Positions 3,753 through 45,100 of a stretch of 50,298 bases of DNA are shown one piece after another. A model generated the notes under the pieces. It was given only the letters and a program-made list of their open reading frames with translations. It did no database searches and was not told where the DNA came from. The number at the start of each line of letters is the position of its first letter. The first letter of the stretch is position 1. The position numbers and the translations under genes are program-made. The DNA is taken from the NCBI GenBank assembly GCA_017518185.1, contig JAFWWB010000080.1, positions 1-50,298 of the forward strand, read 5' to 3'. The DNA is from Lachnospiraceae bacterium. GTDB lineage: Bacteria; Bacillota; Clostridia; Lachnospirales; Lachnospiraceae.

Positions 3753-3803
3753 CTGTGTACCTCCGTTGATATATTCTGAGATTTATGTTATTATTACAGT
3801 CGT

Positions 3804-3901
3804 AAGATCCCTGCCTCAGCATAAGTTCGGCGACGAAGATCAAAGATCTTCTGCCTCACTTATCGACTACGGTCGCTGCGCGACCTCCGCTCGGGATGAC
3901 A
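3804..3901. repeat. dispersed hairpin repeat, copy R1 (98 bp)
   Basis: Runs from AAGATCCC to CGGGATGACA and fills most of the gap between manC and the divergent GT2 gene. The first 65 nt match copy R2 at 5576-5669 with a single difference. Inside is a long hairpin: ATAAGT pairs with ACTTAT and encloses GAAGATC-AAA-GATCTTC. It is one of a family with conserved ends and variable, stem-rich centres. Confidence 0.9.
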
Positions 3902-5557: not shown

Positions 5558-5575
5558 CTTGGTTCCTCCAGTAAT

Positions 5576-5669
5576 AAGATCCCTGCTTCAGCATAAGTTC
5601 GGCGACGAAGATCAAAGATCTTCTGCCTCACTTATCGACTCCGCCCTCCGGGCTTCGCTTGGGATGACA
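5576..5669. repeat. dispersed hairpin repeat, copy R2 (94 bp)
   Basis: Same orientation and nearly the same first 65 nt as R1 (one difference), then a shorter stem (CCGCCCTCCGGG) and the end GGGATGACA. It occupies nearly the whole gap between rmd and the AraC gene. Confidence 0.9.
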
Positions 5670-13242: not shown

Positions 13243-13258
13243 AAGTTTCACCGTTTCA

Positions 13259-13429
13259 AAGATCCCTCGACTGCGCTCGGGATGACATTTTTGCATAACT
13301 GCGCTCGGGATGACATTGTGCGTACACGTGTTCTCTTGTCATTCCGGGCGGGCAGCTCCTTTTTTTGTCATTCCGAGCGAGCAAAGCGAGTCGAGGAATC
13401 TTTTTCCCGTTCACTGCGCTCGGATAACA
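13259..13429. repeat. dispersed hairpin repeat cluster R4 (several partial units)
   Basis: A compound of at least four units. There is a minimal 29-bp copy at 13259-13287, a partial end (ACTGCGCTCGGGATGACA) at 13298-13315, and inverted starts (TGTCATTCCG) at 13337 and 13366. The latter runs to GAGGAATCTT at 13402, and a degenerate end (CACTGCGCTCGGATAACA) sits at 13412-13429. The inverted unit is translated as the C-terminus of the GT26 gene, including its stop codon. Confidence 0.85.
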
Positions 13430-22725: not shown

Positions 22726-24491
22726 CCCAGCACTTCTTCCTTACTCTTTATCGCAGCCTTTCCGTCGGAGATCTCGTAGATCAGGTCGCAGTTCCTTATG
22801 GTGCTCAGACGGTGCGCGACTATTATCAGCGTCTTGCTGCCGCGGAGATGGTCTATGGACTCCATCACCGCAGTCTCGGTCTCATTGTCAAGGGCGCTGG
22901 TAGCCTCATCCAGCACCAGTATCTCAGGCTCGGAATAAAGGGCCCTGGCTATGGCTATACGCTGTCTCTGTCCGCCGGAAAGAGCAACGCCGCGCTCTCC
23001 CGCCATGGTATCCAGGCCGTGCTCCAGACCGCGGACAAAATCCGCCAGCTGTGCATCCTCCAGGGCCTTCCAGACCCTCTCCTCATCCACATCTTCTTCA
23101 TTTATACCGAAGGCCACGTTCCTTCTTATGGTATCGTCAGTAAGATAGACCGACTGGGGCACGTAGCCTATGAGCCGCGACCAGCCCGCCAGGTTTTCGT
23201 ACACGTCCTGTCCGTCCAGAAGTATATGCCCCTTCTGCGGCCTGAGAAGTCCCAGGATAACGTCCGCCAGGGTTGTCTTCCCTGCTCCCGACGGACCGAT
23301 AAGGGCCACGGACTGCCCCCGCTTTACGGAGAAGTTCAGGTCTTTCAGAACATCGTCCCTTGATGCGGGATATTTAAAGCTTACGTTCTCTGCCTTAAGC
23401 TCCGACGTGAACTTCATAGGCTCCGCGCTCTCCACGTCTATGAGAGGCCGGCGTCCCAGGGTATCTTCGTTTATCTCTTTCAGCATGCCGTAAATGGTAT
23501 CCAGCCTGTTGCGGTTATAGGTTATGGCGTTGAGGTTCGTGGTAAGCCTGCCCACGGAGGGGAATAGACGGAAGGCCGCCACCGCAACGGTCGCAAGTTT
23601 GGTAAGGAAGCCCGCCACGTCATCCGTCATATGAAGGCGTATCATCACCATTCCGATAAGACCGCCTATGCACACCACCTCGTAGATATTTGCGGGGATG
23701 GCGTTCAGAAAATGGTTCCTCTTCTGGGCCCTTGAGCTTTCCCTGCAGGCATCCTCGAAGGAGCGGGAGAAATACTTCTGACGGTTCATGACCATTATCT
23801 CCTTGATGCCTCCGAAGGCTTCGCTCAGATACTGCAGCGACCTGCTCTCGCATTCCTGTCCTATGCGGCCTATGGCCCTTATCAGCTTCTTAAGTCCCAG
23901 GAATAGCAGAAGCATGCAGCTTCCCAGTACTACGACCAGAGACAGGGCCAGCAGCGGATCAAGAGTGATGATATAAATGCTTATGGCTGTTATCGTAAAG
24001 ACCTCGGCGATGACCCTGAAGAGATAAAAGAACACGCCGAAGACACCCACCACATCCTGGGTGATGGCGCGGATCAGCACCGATGAGTTCATGGTTATAT
24101 GGTAAAGATAGGATGAGCTCAGGCAGGTCTGTGCCATCTTGATGGACAGATCCCGCTGGACCCCGGTTGAATACCAGGCCTGGACATAGGAGGAGAACAT
24201 AAGGTACAGGTTCTTCACCAGGTAAAGCAGTATGATGAAGAGTCCCAGTATGGTCATGATCTCCTTCGGATCCTCGGCGCTGAAATACTTTATCACAAGC
24301 CCCGTATACCAGCGCTCCTCCGCGATCTCCGGCGTCATGATGGTCTCAATGAAGGGCAGCACTGCCGCGACGCCCAGGAGCTCCCACATGGAGCCGATGA
24401 AGGCGATGATCGTTACGAAAACATACTGGCGTTTCTGTTTCGCCGTCAGTATATATCTCAGTTTCCTGACTATATCTCCAAAGCTTCTCAT
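22722..24491 (-). CDS. ABC transporter, PglK/MsbA-type lipid-linked glycan flippase
   Basis: A 589-residue half-transporter: six membrane helices in the first 320 residues, then an ATPase domain with Walker A GPSGAGKTT (399-407), signature LSGGQ (504-508), Walker B LVLDEATS with D528/E529 and switch H560. PglK-like proteins flip polyprenyl-diphosphate-linked oligosaccharides, and the context (initiating transferase, GTs, Wzy) supports that use. A second, clearly related copy is at 33614. The gene overlaps both neighbours by 4 bp. Confidence 0.85.
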   Translation of the reverse strand: MRSFGDIVRKLRYILTAKQKRQYVFVTIIAFIGSMWELLGVAAVLPFIETIMTPEIAEERWYTGLVIKYFSAEDPKEIMTILGLFIILLYLVKNLYLMFSSYVQAWYSTGVQRDLSIKMAQTCLSSSYLYHITMNSSVLIRAITQDVVGVFGVFFYLFRVIAEVFTITAISIYIITLDPLLALSLVVVLGSCMLLLFLGLKKLIRAIGRIGQECESRSLQYLSEAFGGIKEIMVMNRQKYFSRSFEDACRESSRAQKRNHFLNAIPANIYEVVCIGGLIGMVMIRLHMTDDVAGFLTKLATVAVAAFRLFPSVGRLTTNLNAITYNRNRLDTIYGMLKEINEDTLGRRPLIDVESAEPMKFTSELKAENVSFKYPASRDDVLKDLNFSVKRGQSVALIGPSGAGKTTLADVILGLLRPQKGHILLDGQDVYENLAGWSRLIGYVPQSVYLTDDTIRRNVAFGINEEDVDEERVWKALEDAQLADFVRGLEHGLDTMAGERGVALSGGQRQRIAIARALYSEPEILVLDEATSALDNETETAVMESIDHLRGSKTLIIVAHRLSTIRNCDLIYEISDGKAAIKSKEEVLG

Positions 24492-27725: not shown

Positions 27726-27768
27726 TGTACGATGTCCTTTCAATAAAATAATTCCGACTCAAAGTCTT

Positions 27769-27846
27769 TGTCATTCCGAGCGAAGCATCCCGTAAGATCC
27801 CTCGACTTCGCTCGGGATGACACGGGATGCGCAGTCGAGGAATCTT
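27769..27846. repeat. dispersed hairpin repeat, composite copy R5 (78 bp)
   Basis: A nested structure. A minimal 29-bp unit (AAGATCCCTCGACTTCGCTC to GGGATGACA) sits inside an inverted outer unit (TGTCATTCCGAGCGAAG ... CAGTCGAGGAATCTT). The arms GCATCCCG and CGGGATGC can pair around the inner unit. It differs from R6b at 28379-28456 by only 3 of 78 bases and lies in the same orientation. Its last bases overlap the fdtA-like stop codon. Confidence 0.9.
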
Positions 27847-28243: not shown

Positions 28244-28256
28244 ATTTTCTTCCTGT

Positions 28257-28303
28257 AAGATCCCTCGACTTCGCTCACTTCGTTCGCTGCGCTCGGGATG
28301 ACA
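28257..28303. repeat. dispersed hairpin repeat, copy R6a (47 bp)
   Basis: AAGATCCCTCGACTTCGCTC followed by CACTTCGTTCGCTGCG and the end CTCGGGATGACA. It lies directly upstream of the fdtA-like start. Between it and R6b are further fragments with GCTCACTTCGTTC (about 28313-28360), probably decayed units. Confidence 0.85.
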
Positions 28304-28378
28304 TTATGTGGTCACTTCGTTCTATGGTTTCGGTAGCATTATACGCTCACTTCGTTCGGGGCACAGTGTTGCTTCTTT

Positions 28379-28456
28379 TGTCATTCCGAGCGGAGCATCC
28401 CGTAAGATCCCTAGACTTCGCTCGGGATGACACGGGATGCGGAGTCGAGGAATCTT
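28379..28456. repeat. dispersed hairpin repeat, composite copy R6b (78 bp)
   Basis: Same nested 78-bp element and orientation as R5 with three base differences. It starts 15 bp beyond the stop codon of the GIY-YIG nuclease gene on the minus strand, so the nuclease message would carry it as its 3' hairpin. Confidence 0.9.
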
Positions 28457-28471
28457 TCTCTTCTCCAACAC

Positions 28472-28753
28472 TCATTGCAATTCTATTTCTTCCCATTGTG
28501 GATTGACACTTTCAACCAATGCCCTTTTCTTTTCTCTTCTCCACTTTTTTAACTGTTTTTCTCTTTCTATAGCAGCATTCACATTGTTTGTTTCTTCAAC
28601 GTACACCAGTTTATCAACATTGTACTTTTTTGTGAATCCGTCTATCATTTTGTTTTTATGTTCATACAAACGTCTTTTAATATCATTTGTCATTCCCACA
28701 TATAATACATTATTATTCCAATTCGAAAGTATATAAACATAGTAATGATTCAT
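28472..28753 (-). CDS. GIY-YIG nuclease domain protein, AT-rich
   Basis: A 93-residue single-domain GIY-YIG endonuclease. YVYIL (5-9) and LYVGMT (17-22) form the GIY-YIG core, NDIKRRLYEHKN (23-34) supplies the catalytic Arg helix, and VEETNNVNAAIEREKQLKKW the family C-terminus. Members of this small-protein group (YhbQ/UPF0213 and relatives) have mostly unproven roles. The gene is strikingly AT-rich compared with its GC-rich neighbours, pointing to recent transfer. Its start overlaps the upstream GT2 stop by 4 bp (ATGA), and repeat R6b follows its stop at once. It has no evident role in glycan synthesis, and its location among the repeats suggests a link to their movement. Confidence 0.93.
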   Translation of the reverse strand: MNHYYVYILSNWNNNVLYVGMTNDIKRRLYEHKNKMIDGFTKKYNVDKLVYVEETNNVNAAIEREKQLKKWRREKKRALVESVNPQWEEIELQ

Positions 28754-33617: not shown

Positions 33618-35350
33618 AGCGAGCTCTCCGTTATCTTTTTATTCTCAACCTTGTATATGATATCGCAGTTCTCAATGGTCTTCAGCCTGTGGGCTATGAT
33701 GAGCATGGTCTTCCTTCCCTTCAGGGAATTCACCGCCTCCATGACCGCAGCCTCTGTCTCGTTATCCAGGGCGGAGGTGGCCTCATCGAAGACCAGCAGC
33801 TCCGGATCGTGGTAAAGCGCCCTGGCGATGCCTATACGCTGCCGCTGTCCGCCCGAGATGCGTATGCCCTTGTCTCCGGTATAGGTATCCAGCCCGTCGG
33901 GCAGCCCCTTCACGAAATCCTCCATCTGGGCCTCTCTCAGCACTTCCCAGACTCTCTCATCGTCTATATCCTCATCGTTCATGCCGAAGGCCACATTCCG
34001 TCTTATGGTATTGTCCAGCATATACATGTTCTGGGCAATATAGCCCACATTATAGAGCCAGCCGGGAGAAGTGGGATCCACCTCCCTGCCGTCCGCAAAG
34101 ACCCTGCCCTCCTGGGGACGAAGAAGCCCCAGCAGTATATCCGCGATGGTGGTCTTTCCCGCACCGGAAGGGCCCATGACGCCCACGGAGCTTCCCACGG
34201 GTATCCTCATCTCCGCCCTGTCGAATATCTGCTTATCCGAATTCGGATAGTGATAGCAGATGTCCTTCAGCACTATCTCTTTTTCAAAGCTTATCTTCTC
34301 CGTATCCTGACGGCCCTTCCCGGCTTCCTTAAGGGAAGCCACGTCCAGATTATCGGCGATGACATTCAGGGAAGGCTCGTAGTAAGTGATGGCGGAAACA
34401 TGGGAAGACATGCGGTTCACCGAAGGCATGAGCCTCACCGCCGCCATTGCAAAGGCTGTCAGCGTGGGGAACATGGACATAAGATCCGCCCCTCTCATCA
34501 CCAGTATGAACATGTACATCAGCATCCCCGCGATACACACGGTCTCTATCACCAGCCTGGGGGCCGCGTTCAGCACCGTATAGCGCCTTCCGCTGGCAGC
34601 CAGTCTCCTGTAATCCTTCTCGAAGCCCTCCACGAAATGCTGCTCCCTGGCGCTTACCTTCACATCCTTGATGCCGCCGATGCTCTCCTGCATCCACTTC
34701 ATGGTCTTGCTCTGCTGGGATACGCGTTCGTTGCCGAGCCTTGAAAGGGTCGGCTTCATGAGCTTTATTATGACCAGCACCATCACCGCCAGCAAAAGGG
34801 CTATGGCCATGGTCATCTTAAAGTCCACTATCATCAGAAAGATGCAGATGCAGATTGACACCACCACCTCGCTGGCCAGCAGCATAAGTTCCTTCAACAA
34901 TTCGAAAACATGGGGGATATCGCTGTGGAAGGTGCGCATGATATCGCTGGATTCCGCATTGAGATAATACTCATAGGGACGGTTCAGGCAGTCATAGATC
35001 AGCCGCACCGAGGTCTCGCTCTGGGCGTTGGCCACGAAACGGGCCTGGATACCCGTCATCCAGAGGAGATAAACATTCTTTAATACAAAAACCGCAAGAG
35101 TTGCTATCAGCATGATCCGGACAAAGAGATCCCTTGAAAGCTCCGTTATGCCCAGCTTTGACATGATCTCTATCACGATTTCGTTTCCCAGTATGGAATC
35201 CGGATCCACCAGAACGGAGATCAGCGGTATGATTATGCCCACTCCGAGAGTCTCGAACAACGCCCCGATGAAGATCAGAACGACCAGTATCAAGACCCTG
35301 CTCTTCTGCCTGCGGCTGAGCACAAATTTTAGCCTGCGCAATACGTTCAT
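33614..35350 (-). CDS. ABC transporter, PglK/MsbA-type flippase (first gene of the glycan operon)
   Basis: A 578-residue half-transporter with six helices, then Walker A GPSGAGKTT (393-401), signature ISGGQ (498-502), Walker B with D522/E523 and switch H554. It is closely related in layout and sequence to the transporter at 22722 (both have LGLLRPQ-G and TIRRNVAFG-NxED). It is the first gene after the strong promoter at 35407-35436. Likely flips a polyprenyl-linked glycan. Two such flippases in one locus suggest two lipid-linked products or a partial duplication. Confidence 0.85.
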   Translation of the reverse strand: MNVLRRLKFVLSRRQKSRVLILVVLIFIGALFETLGVGIIIPLISVLVDPDSILGNEIVIEIMSKLGITELSRDLFVRIMLIATLAVFVLKNVYLLWMTGIQARFVANAQSETSVRLIYDCLNRPYEYYLNAESSDIMRTFHSDIPHVFELLKELMLLASEVVVSICICIFLMIVDFKMTMAIALLLAVMVLVIIKLMKPTLSRLGNERVSQQSKTMKWMQESIGGIKDVKVSAREQHFVEGFEKDYRRLAASGRRYTVLNAAPRLVIETVCIAGMLMYMFILVMRGADLMSMFPTLTAFAMAAVRLMPSVNRMSSHVSAITYYEPSLNVIADNLDVASLKEAGKGRQDTEKISFEKEIVLKDICYHYPNSDKQIFDRAEMRIPVGSSVGVMGPSGAGKTTIADILLGLLRPQEGRVFADGREVDPTSPGWLYNVGYIAQNMYMLDNTIRRNVAFGMNDEDIDDERVWEVLREAQMEDFVKGLPDGLDTYTGDKGIRISGGQRQRIGIARALYHDPELLVFDEATSALDNETEAAVMEAVNSLKGRKTMLIIAHRLKTIENCDIIYKVENKKITESSL

Positions 35351-42140: not shown

Positions 42141-45100
42141 TCACCGTCCCAGATGCCTGCCCGAAGGAGGTCGGTAGGTGACCCGTACGTTTCCTTCTCC
42201 GAGAAGCTTTGTCAGCTTTTCAACGAGCTCCGTATCCGCATTCACGCATACATTGTGGGGGAGCTCAAACACCTGCTTGTCCGAGGTATAGTAAAATCTC
42301 ACATAATTAAGACCGTCGGAGGCCTCGAGTATCTTCCTTACGTCTTCCCACAGCCTGTCCTTTTCCGCTTCGTCGGTAAACTGAAGCCATAAAGTCCTGG
42401 GTATGTCCTCAAAGGGCGTGACCGCCTGTGCGATGAGCTTGCCGTTCTTATCCTCCTCCAGGCTCACCCTTCCTTCTATCATGATCTTCGCGCCGTCGCT
42501 TATGACATTCTGGTACTGCTTCCAGGTCTTGGGGAAGACTATCACCTCTGCCTGTCCCACCAGATCCTCTATGGTCACGAAGGCCATGACCTCGTTGCGC
42601 TTGGTGAATTTCAGCTTCACCTCCTGCACCAGTCCGCCCAGGGAAATGCTCTCCCCGTCCCGGACCGCCGGTTCCTCCTCGCCCTGCCCTTCTTCAGGGA
42701 CCTTCAGCACCAGGTCTCCGGAGACGTTGCTGATCACCCTCTCCCAGAGGCCGCTGTACTCATCCAGTGGATGGCCGCTTACGTAGATCCCCAGCATCTC
42801 CTTTTCGAAATCCAGGAGCATCTCACGGGAGAATTCTCCCATATTCTCCGGTATCTTTATCCTGAAGCTGTCCTTTTCCTCGCCTTCGGCCAGGTCAAAG
42901 AGGCTCAGCTGGCCGCTCATGGACTGCTTGAGATCCTTCTGGGCATTGTCCATAAGCTGCATGTATACCGCCATGAGCTGCTTCCTCGTATGTCCGAAGC
43001 AGTCCAGGGCACCGGCCTTTATCAGGTTCTCCACCTGTCTCTTGTTCATTTCCAGAGGTGCACAGCGCTCGATGAAGTCATAAAAGCTCTCAAAGAGGCC
43101 GTTGCGGCTCCGTTCCTCTACTATATCCGCCACGATGCCCTTACCTATGCCGCGTATGGCGCTGAGGGAGTATATTATCTCATCCCGGGGGGGATCCTTC
43201 GACTCCGTGCCTTCGGCACTCCGCTCAGGATGACCTGTAAGTGCTTCGGCACTCCGCTCAGGATGACATGTAAGTGCTTCAGCACTCCGCTCAGGATGAC
43301 ATGTTGGCGCCCCTACTGTAAAGCCCACATCCCCTATATTGATGTCGGGAGGCAGGAGCTTTAAGCCCATCTGCCTTGCGATAAGGTTATACTCCGCCAC
43401 CTTCCCGGCGTTATCCAGCACCGAGGTCATGAGGGCGGCCATGTATTCCGCAGGATAGTAATATTTCAGCCAGGCAGTCTGGTAAGCCACCACTGCATAG
43501 CAGGCAGCGTGGGATTTATTGAAGCCGTACTTGGCGAAATCTATCATCATGTCGTAGACCTGTTCCGCCACCGCTGCGTCTATGCCTTTACGCACGCAGC
43601 CCGGAACGGGCCTGGGCCATTTTTCTTCGGGCAGGCCATCCTTCTTTGCCTTTTCTATCTCGGCGTCGTTGCCGTTAACGAAGATGTCACGCTCATAGGC
43701 CATGACCTCGCCTTTTTTCTTGCTCATTGCCCGGCGCACGTTGTCGGAACGGCCAAGGGAGAAGCCCGCAAGATCACGGACTATCTGCATGACCTGCTCC
43801 TGATAGACTATGCAGCCGTAGGTAGGGGAGAGAATGGGGCGCAGCTCCTCGCAGGCATAGCTGATGTGCTCCTCGTTCTCCTTGCTGTCGATATATTTCG
43901 GGATCATGTCCATGGGACCCGGCCGGTAAAGGGAGATGCCGGCGATGACATCCTCCAGGCTCCTGGGCTTAAGCTCCTTCATGAAGCTCTTCATGCCTGC
44001 GCTCTCCAGCTGGAATATGCCCTCGCAGCGTCCCGTTCCTATATAGTGAAAGACCTTGGGGTCGTTGTAATCTATCTTTGACGGATCTATATCCTTTCCG
44101 CAGCTCTTTTTTATGTTCTCCACCGCGGACTGTATGACCTCCAGGTTCCGAAGCCCCAGAAAGTCCATCTTGAGAAGCCCCAGCCTCTCCAGAGTGGTCA
44201 TGGTGAACTGCGTTGTTATCGGACCGTCGCCGCTGCAGCTTAAGGGCACGAATTCATCCGCCGCCTCGGGACAGATGACCACGCCGGCCGCATGCATGGA
44301 GGTATGCCTGGGAAGACCCTCCAGCCTCATGCACATATCCAGCATGTAATGCACTTCTTCGTCATCGTCGTAGAGCGCCTTGAGCTCCGGGTTCATCTCC
44401 AGAGCCGCCTTGAGCGTTATCCCCAGCTCCGCCGGCACCATCTTTGCCAGCATATCGCAGCGTCCGTAGGGTATGTCCATGGCCCGTCCCACGTCCCGGA
44501 TGACGCCCTTTGCCTGCAGGGTTCCGAAGGTGACTATCTGAACCACCTTTTCCCTGCCGTATTTTTCCGCCACATACTCTATGACCTCCTGGCGGCGCTC
44601 CGGCCCGAAATCCACGTCTATATCGGGCATGGACACGCGCTCGGGATTCAGAAAACGCTCAAACAGCAGGCTGTAGCGTATGGGATCTATATCGGTTATC
44701 TTTAAACAGTAGGATACTATGCTGCCCGCGGCGCTGCCTCTTCCGGGTCCCACGGGTATGCCGTTCTCCTTGGCATAATTTATGAAGTCCGCAACGATGA
44801 GGAAGTAATCCACGAAGCCCATACGCTCTATGACGGAGAGCTCGTACTCCAGCCTATCCTTAAGCTCCTGCGTCACAGGCTCATAGCGCTCCTCAAGCCC
44901 TTTTTCGCAGAGCATACGGAGATACGACTTCGCGTCATAGCCTTCGGGCACATCAAAACGCGGCAGATGGCTTTCACCGAAGCCTATGGTTACGTTGCAG
45001 CGCTCCGCTATCTTCTGCGTATTCTCCAGCGCCTCCGGCACATAGGGGAATAGCGTCCTCATCTCCTCTTCGCTCTTCACATAGAACTGGCCCCCTTCGT

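Follow-up and report, generated by a model that had tools for sequence, protein, structure and literature searches.

A GIY-YIG nuclease gene next to hairpin repeats

The DNA analyzed here, called the window, is a stretch of 50,298 nucleotides that makes up one whole contig (C60) of the 3.3-Mb genome of a Lachnospiraceae bacterium. It contains a short nuclease gene and several copies of a hairpin repeat, which are located as follows.

28472..28753, minus strand: single-domain, AT-rich GIY-YIG nuclease gene (open reading frame with translation, 93 aa; PF01541, 6.7e-18)
28377..28456, no strand: composite hairpin repeat (R6b), 80 bp, 15 bp beyond the gene stop, with forward tag GTCATTCCGAGCG at 28380 and reverse tag CGCTCGGGATGAC at 28419
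about 28256..28303, no strand: single hairpin unit (TAAGATCCCTCGACTTCG ... CGCTCGGGATGACA), hairpin-validated
27767..27846, no strand: second composite copy on the far side of an FdtA-like gene, 96% identical to 28377-28456
13258..13402, no strand: cluster of four units of the same repeat family, with tags 13287-, 13315-, 13337+ and 13366+

The gene product matched the GIY-YIG family PF01541 over residues 4-76 with 65.2 bits (cut-off 22.6) and is assigned, on its sequence, to the GIY-YIG nuclease superfamily. The only other Pfam match (E ≤ 0.001), T5orf172, covered the same residues. No match to HUH, RAYT or transposase families was obtained in Pfam at this threshold, and identity as a RAYT/HUH tyrosine transposase was rejected on this ground; nor did Pfam reveal a second DNA-binding domain beside the GIY-YIG domain in the 93 residues. 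In NCBIfam, TIGR01453 (group I intron endonuclease) matched at 2.2e-4, far under its cut-off, and the best PHROG match was phrog_5123, a GIY-YIG homing endonuclease (1.1e-5). The GC content of the gene (29.8%) is below that of the window (52.6%) and of its two neighbors (50.4% and 54.5%). The stop codon of the upstream glycosyltransferase gene overlaps with the ATG of the nuclease gene (ATGA, 28750-28753).

An earlier note on this DNA had described a 93-residue GIY-YIG gene far more AT-rich than its neighbors, in agreement with the open reading frame, the PF01541 match and the GC values given above. It had also called the gene the only one at the locus without a glycan or regulatory role. This statement is not established: Pfam scans of 12 neighbors gave no match at the chosen cut-off for three of them, and one of the 12 encodes a PLP-dependent enzyme. 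The composite repeat ends 15 bp (28457-28471) from the stop codon of the gene, exactly as noted earlier, with a repeat length of 80 bp instead of the 78 bp reported. The further copies that had been announced within 700 bp are also present: the second composite copy lies 610 bp away (start to start), and the single unit at about 28256-28303 lies in between. All repeats near the gene are located downstream and none was found upstream of it.

In total, seven hairpin-validated units were found in the window. Its 20 shuffled versions contained 0.55 on average and never more than 3. The 13-mer CGCTCGGGATGAC occurs in 127 exact copies genome-wide (reversed control 0). The lone DNA fold of 28377-28456 had an energy of -14.6 kcal/mol (z -1.73), and 12 of 200 shuffled sequences folded equally well. 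Since this fold exceeds the shuffled ones only mildly, the case for a hairpin was built on comparison.

Three other repetitive features of the window were recorded. Positions 43211-43309 hold three 33-bp tandem copies bearing CGCTCAGGATGAC, an array of a similar motif. A second repeat family of 75 bp is present in two copies (3797-3871 and 5569-5643, 95% identical), and a 300-bp stretch (22860-23159 and 33737-34036, 71% identity) is common to two ABC transporter genes. Elsewhere in the same genome, two further GIY-YIG matches were found, one within a 622-aa open frame and one as a GC-rich solo gene (L002), whose 3.2-kb locus contains no TGTCATT tag.

Relatives of the nuclease are patchily distributed

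A protein-only search of genome contigs gave at least 573 confirmed relatives, the best 80 of which were analyzed with their surroundings. The 71 loci with a phylum in the tree represent 24 phylum-level groups (by record title). In 54 aligned sequences, Y7, Y18, G20, R28, H32, E65 and N84 are invariant; we take Y7, Y18, R28, E65 and N84 to be the catalytic Tyr, Tyr, Arg, Glu and Asn of GIY-YIG enzymes. The GC content of the gene was below that of its surroundings in all 76 loci with more than 2 kb of flank, by a median of 10.5 points.

Among 60 genomes, own included, a close gene was present only in G000 and G001. Distribution in the phylum was likewise patchy, with 6 carriers in 398 genomes (own included), all with at least 56% identity; two of these, G115 and G154, have the same gene. 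At least two gene matches of ≥ 96 bits were present in 16 of 20 carrier genomes, which had been picked from the 80 loci and mostly have ATTC-type flanks. Carriage by phages was considered and rejected: a single remote match (33%) was found among phage records, and two loci lie in viral contigs, where the gene is located beside or between hairpins of the type described below.

Two individual copies deserve mention. The copy on a Planktothrix plasmid (L181) lies between a gene for an MmeI-type restriction enzyme and the DISARM gene drmA. In Neisseria gonorrhoeae (NZ_CP119142.1; L056:5001-5255), an unannotated GIY-YIG relative with 45% identity is located within a cluster of CGTCATTCCCGC repeats, which are dRS3-like.

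The nuclease genes are bounded by outward-facing hairpin repeats

All 7-mers were ranked by their enrichment about 20-400 bp from the gene, with the expectation taken from parts of these contigs at a distance of more than 3 kb. The top 7-mer was AATGACA/TGTCATT (229 occurrences, 12.3 expected, 18.6-fold), which was present near the gene in 62 of the 80 loci, followed by GAATGAC (147, 10.6 expected). Tag density decreased from about 7 per kb at 20-100 bp from the gene to 0.13-0.46 per kb beyond 400 bp. When the nearest tags within 600 bp were considered, outward orientation on both sides was the commonest arrangement (43/80), followed by FF (11), RF (9), RR (8), a tag on one side (6) and no tag (3). 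In 66 of 80 loci, outward tags flanked the gene on both sides at a distance of up to 400 bp, and the median unit length was 408 bp. Beyond the tag, the two ends of the same element had a run of at least 10 nt in common in 26 of these 66 cases, compared to 3.8% of shuffled pairs.

A structured unit was defined as a [T/C]GTC tag followed by a hairpin that opens with AT and by a C tail. Of the 80 focal genes, 54 had such validated units at both flanks (within 400 bp), compared to a single one of 490 other ORFs from these contigs; a unit at one flank or more was present for 72/80 and 69/490, respectively. The 490 comparison ORFs (≥ 150 aa) were all that qualified and were usable for resampling in 72 of the 80 loci. 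Unit density was 4.05 per kb near the gene, 0.131 per kb beyond 2 kb and 0.011 per kb in shuffled sequence, and the enrichment was still 12.5-fold when only non-ORF bases were counted. Around 30 GIY-YIG genes of a control subfamily, no validated unit was found in 92,399 bp, and the simple tag occurred on one side of 4 and on both sides of none of them. As the genomes of these control genes (Bacillota) mostly seem to be repeat-poor, the comparison with ORFs of the same contigs carries more weight. Flanking DNA was common to just five locus pairs, so that inherited synteny is not the source of the association.

In eight of the 80 loci, the 400 bp on each side of the gene contained no validated unit; two copies with an in-frame stop (L098, L122) were kept in these flank counts. 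Of ten further gene copies in carrier genomes, eight were flanked by at least one unit and five by units on both sides, as recounted by coordinates except for L257, which was parsed as lacking a unit; the frame search had missed 10 of 30 copies. Visual inspection of ten plasmid-borne copies showed GTCAT-type hairpins on both sides of six and variant tags (GTCAC, CGTCG) at three, while the tenth, from Photobacterium, has a distant downstream hairpin only. In seven Bacillota loci, the window's included, a tag was present within 400 bp in six and on both sides in two. In G001, the gene carries repeats on both sides and is located beside the same glycan-locus FdtA-like gene as in the window.

These data establish the association of this GIY-YIG subfamily with these hairpin repeats across phyla. 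The check proposed in the earlier note, whether genes of the subfamily are flanked by the repeat more often than chance, was thus carried out on 80 loci found by protein against ORFs of the same contigs, and the pairing suggested there received strong support, all the more as the control subfamily lacks it.

The hairpin has a conserved architecture and variable stems

A 5-bp stem starting from the AT after GTC was able to form at 118 of 141 gene-proximal tags, compared to a mean of 6.3 and a maximum of 14 after shuffling; the tags were found by GTCAT, which builds the AT into the search, so that its pairing alone was tested. The 118 stems comprised the types ATTC/GAAT (53), ATCC/GGAT (24), ATTG/CAAT (20), ATTT/AAAT (16) and ATCT/AGAT (5). 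This covariation of the stem indicates that the hairpin is kept and not the sequence alone. Judged by its first two bases, the tail was C[CT] in 112 of 118 hairpins (CC 56, CT 56). The base preceding GTC in the 141 tags was T in 116, C in 20, A in 3 and G in 2 cases. The exact CGTC tag was found at the Sphingobium, Neisseria and pNL2 loci; at those of Sphingobium and pNL2 the AT opening is absent (CGTCACC, CGTCGCC).

The rhizobial copies L231, L222 and L182 (Sinorhizobium and Rhizobium plasmids) have nearby palindromes that open with CTCATCC or CTCATTCC and not with GTCATTC. The repeats beside or around these copies look like RIME elements.

Gene and repeats can be absent together

Comparison of orthologous sites revealed two from which the gene and the repeats are missing together, as one block, in relatives. 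Between sufB and sufC, Azospirillum lipoferum 4B has the gene with a REP dimer on each side, whereas A. ramasamyi, A. oryzae and strain B510 have neither the gene nor the REPs at this site. Similarly, G457 lacks the gene and the repeats at a site where G367 has both, with flanks that are 69% identical. At the fnrL locus of Sphingobium three states were found: in some plasmids the gene lies between a CGTC-hairpin and a hairpin-GACG, TomTYG64 and TomTYG74 contain a CGTC...GACG palindrome without the gene, and TomTYG72 and TomTYG65 are without a tagged hairpin.

Eight clean units showed no target-site duplication (adjacent repeat lengths 0, 0, 2, 0, 0, 1, 0 and 0), and a plain IS with target duplication was rejected for this reason. 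Some IS families have no target-site duplication. Among the places listed, outward hairpin pairs without a gene recurred with a constant length, which was 87 bp for G463 and 67 bp for G465. The left and right ends of these pairs are two different hairpins, as in MITE-like units. In G367 (L187, around 3900), a repeat seems to provide the stop codon (TGTCATTCTGA) for the gene upstream of it, as though it had inserted into the 3' end of that gene.

Other comparisons were less informative. A search for gene-less sites in Rhizobium gave eight records with the whole stretch including the gene and otherwise, among the matches listed, part of one flank. In relatives of Shinella without the gene, the spacers had diverged and no clean junction was found. 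In Sinorhizobium M103, the gene region is present and one adjacent repeat block is absent.

Repeat number follows the gene only loosely

The earlier note had proposed to test whether repeat copy number tracks the presence of the gene, which turned out to be true in part. Among the 60 genomes, own included, the two carriers had the highest repeat counts (G000 194, G001 343). Genomes without a close gene, however, also contained repeats (G020 85, G031 77, G021 54, G026 13). In the 398 phylum genomes, the pattern TGTCATTCYSRS was frequent in the carriers G219 (156) and G000 (67), but also in G265 (252) and G229 (32), which have no close gene. It was rare in the carriers G136 (10), G115 (8), G154 (6) and G367 (6) (reversed controls 1, 3, 3 and 4), the last three of which were near background. 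This pattern provides a weak test of copy number because it misses other stem types. A strict coupling of repeat number to the gene was rejected, as six genomes without a close gene (G020, G021, G026, G031, G229, G265) hold 13-252 motif copies. Repeat-rich genomes lacking the gene had been named in the earlier note as an observation that would remove the association, and these six correspond to them in part. By analogy to REP and RAYT, repeats in genomes without a close gene may be relics. In the 20 chosen carriers, dispersed repeats summed up to 795 compared to 10 in the controls, with a range of 2-162; G464 (5), G468 (3) and G477 (2) had few repeats by the patterns used.

The hairpin type follows the nuclease phylogeny

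To compare proteins and repeats, stem types were mapped on the protein tree for 76 of the 80 loci, leaving out loci without a tag as well as L098 and L122. The fourth stem base required 11 changes, compared to 25.0 after shuffling and 22.1 after shuffling within phyla (0 of 300 as low), and the stem trinucleotide required 29 changes compared to 50.8 and 44.5, on a tree built from few columns and with many unresolved forks. In the 69 loci with a named phylum, the nearest relative from another phylum had the same stem trinucleotide in 23 cases (8.8 expected). The repeat type thus agrees with the phylogeny of the enzyme, also between phyla. Part of this congruence is explained by co-transfer of linked DNA, and a mobile unit predicts the same.

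The agreement extends to repeats away from the gene: of 112 repeats at a distance of more than 2 kb (29 loci), 83 were of the type found beside the gene, compared to a mean of 28.1 and a maximum of 62 when partners were shuffled. Moreover, gene copies within one genome can have different hairpins, as in G469 (CCTGCG and ATTACG types), G479 (CCCCGA/CCCGTG and ATTGCG), G475 (CCCGCG and CTGAAC) and G471 (CCTGCG and ATTGCG). In the other five of the nine genomes compared, hairpins were mixed or similar, or one copy was without a unit.

Relation to known repeat systems

According to the available part of Di Nocera et al. (2013; PMC3733652), REPs of the CGTC superfamily are short palindromes that carry an unpaired tag on one of their ends; the first two stem positions are almost always complementary A and T, and the tails mostly fit CCA. 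They are mostly found as HH dimers (tags outside), in many bacteria of several phyla, and include Neisseria dRS3 as CGTC-1; the superfamily is described as apparently lacking a dedicated transposase. The hairpins flanking the nuclease genes resemble them in their AT-opening stem, C[C/T] tail, outward tags and many dispersed copies. Their tag is [T/C]GTC, with a first base that is mostly T (116/141), and they cover a wider range of stem types and phyla.

The architecture also corresponds to REPtrons of RAYT enzymes, in which inverted REPs flank the enzyme gene, partners are repeat-specific, repeats outnumber genes and gene-less dimers are dispersed. In contrast to REPtrons, the enzyme is a single-domain GIY-YIG protein without a HUH or transposase match, and the tag is [T/C]GTC rather than the GTAG of RAYT-associated REPs. 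The comparison with RAYTs drawn in the earlier note is thus justified for the architecture and for the repeat-specific partners, as seen from tree congruence and from differing copies within genomes. A unit that carries a gene between inverted ends, together with derivatives that lack the gene and have a constant length, is likewise reminiscent of a MITE and its parent IS; here, however, the ends are themselves palindromic, a transposase match is lacking and the clean units show no target duplication. With free-standing GIY-YIG homing endonucleases of group I intron and phage types the protein has the catalytic domain and weak similarity (TIGR01453, phrog_5123) in common. It differs from them by its 93 aa without an added DNA-binding domain, by its REP-hairpin boundaries and by the lack of an intron or phage context at the loci read.

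A pairing of a GIY-YIG protein with REPs was not found among the literature matches listed (judged by titles or the openings of abstracts); this set leaves subscription papers and preprints mostly outside, and a report among those is possible. The string GIY has no match in PMC3733652 and is absent from PMC12306157, PMC5896051 and PMC6006769. In the available part of the phylogenomic study of GIY-YIG proteins (PMC1564403), COG2827 gave no match and such repeats are unmentioned. One gene table in the part of PMC9465073 that was available names a GIY-YIG endonuclease and RayT, without drawing a link.

A proposed REPtron-like element

The gene and its hairpins very likely form a unit. We think it likely that the GIY-YIG gene is the enzyme gene of an autonomous, REPtron-like element of about 0.4 kb whose nuclease processes the element's own hairpins. 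The element would have the layout [T/C]GTC-hairpin, gene, hairpin-GAC[A/G], with the two outward-tagged REP hairpins as bounds. In the proposed mechanism, the nuclease would recognize its own hairpins when these are extruded on single-stranded or cruciform DNA and would nick at the junction of tag and stem, after which host repair or replication would copy the unit to other sites. Dispersed gene-less hairpin dimers, such as the 80-bp copies of the window, could then be non-autonomous derivatives moved in trans. The element would work like REP and RAYT, but with an unrelated enzyme. Cutting of the hairpins and mobilization by the nuclease are our best inference from the sequence comparisons and probably correct. 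The window copy, which has hairpins downstream only, probably represents a decayed or rearranged unit. Its one-sidedness counts against the proposed element, and so do the repeat-rich genomes without a close gene, the carriers with few repeats, the lack of target duplication in the clean units and the loci without a validated unit nearby.

An alternative is a free-standing homing-type endonuclease that cleaves existing REP palindromes or DNA close to them; copying of its gene into the break would leave the gene flanked by repeat halves, without mobilization of the repeats. The gene-less CGTC...GACG palindromes of TomTYG64 and TomTYG74, located where others hold repeat-gene-repeat, would fit such a history, as would the repeat-rich genomes without a close gene and the NCBIfam (far under the cut-off) and best PHROG matches to homing enzymes. 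The flanking hairpins of the loci inspected by eye are, however, whole REP units and not halves, and most tags (118 of 141) close a 5-bp stem. Furthermore, the gene-less sites of Azospirillum and of the G367/G457 comparison lack such a repeat, and the 93 residues offer no second DNA-binding domain. We consider this alternative unlikely.

Less probable still, at roughly one chance in ten or slightly below, is a structure-specific nuclease that serves the host by trimming or resolving hairpins extruded by REPs and that came to lie near repeats through regulation or joint travel. Invariant catalytic residues and a stem type that tracks the nuclease clade are compatible with this role, but several features look selfish rather than housekeeping: patchy presence (6/398 phylum genomes, own included), an AT content above that of the surroundings in 76/76 loci, multiple gene matches in most of the selected carriers (16/20), and the finding that one genome can hold gene copies whose repeats differ. 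Finally, a mere gathering of alien AT-rich genes and repeats in permissive intergenic regions, which would suit intergenic-type cargo and a gene of low GC content, is very improbable and already disfavored by the tree, the control subfamily (no gene with repeats on both sides) and the same-contig ORFs (1/490 bounded on both sides), and also by the 12.5-fold enrichment in non-ORF bases and the outward orientation of the tags.

With respect to the REPtron-like element, we lean towards regarding it as a new class of prokaryotic mobile element, which would be among the smallest, with one GIY-YIG domain between two REP hairpins and with many hairpin specificities co-evolving with the enzyme. It would then be the missing mobilizer of the superfamily of [T/C]GTC REPs, with Neisseria dRS3 and the TGTCATTC-type repeats found in many phyla among them. 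The nuclease may thus be the long-missing enzyme that spreads one common family of bacterial DNA repeats, and since its clade predicts the hairpin stem across phyla, CGTC-type REPs now have a named enzyme candidate. If the nuclease cuts these hairpins, this would be a new enzymatic route of REP spread and would provide a set of small hairpin-specific nucleases.
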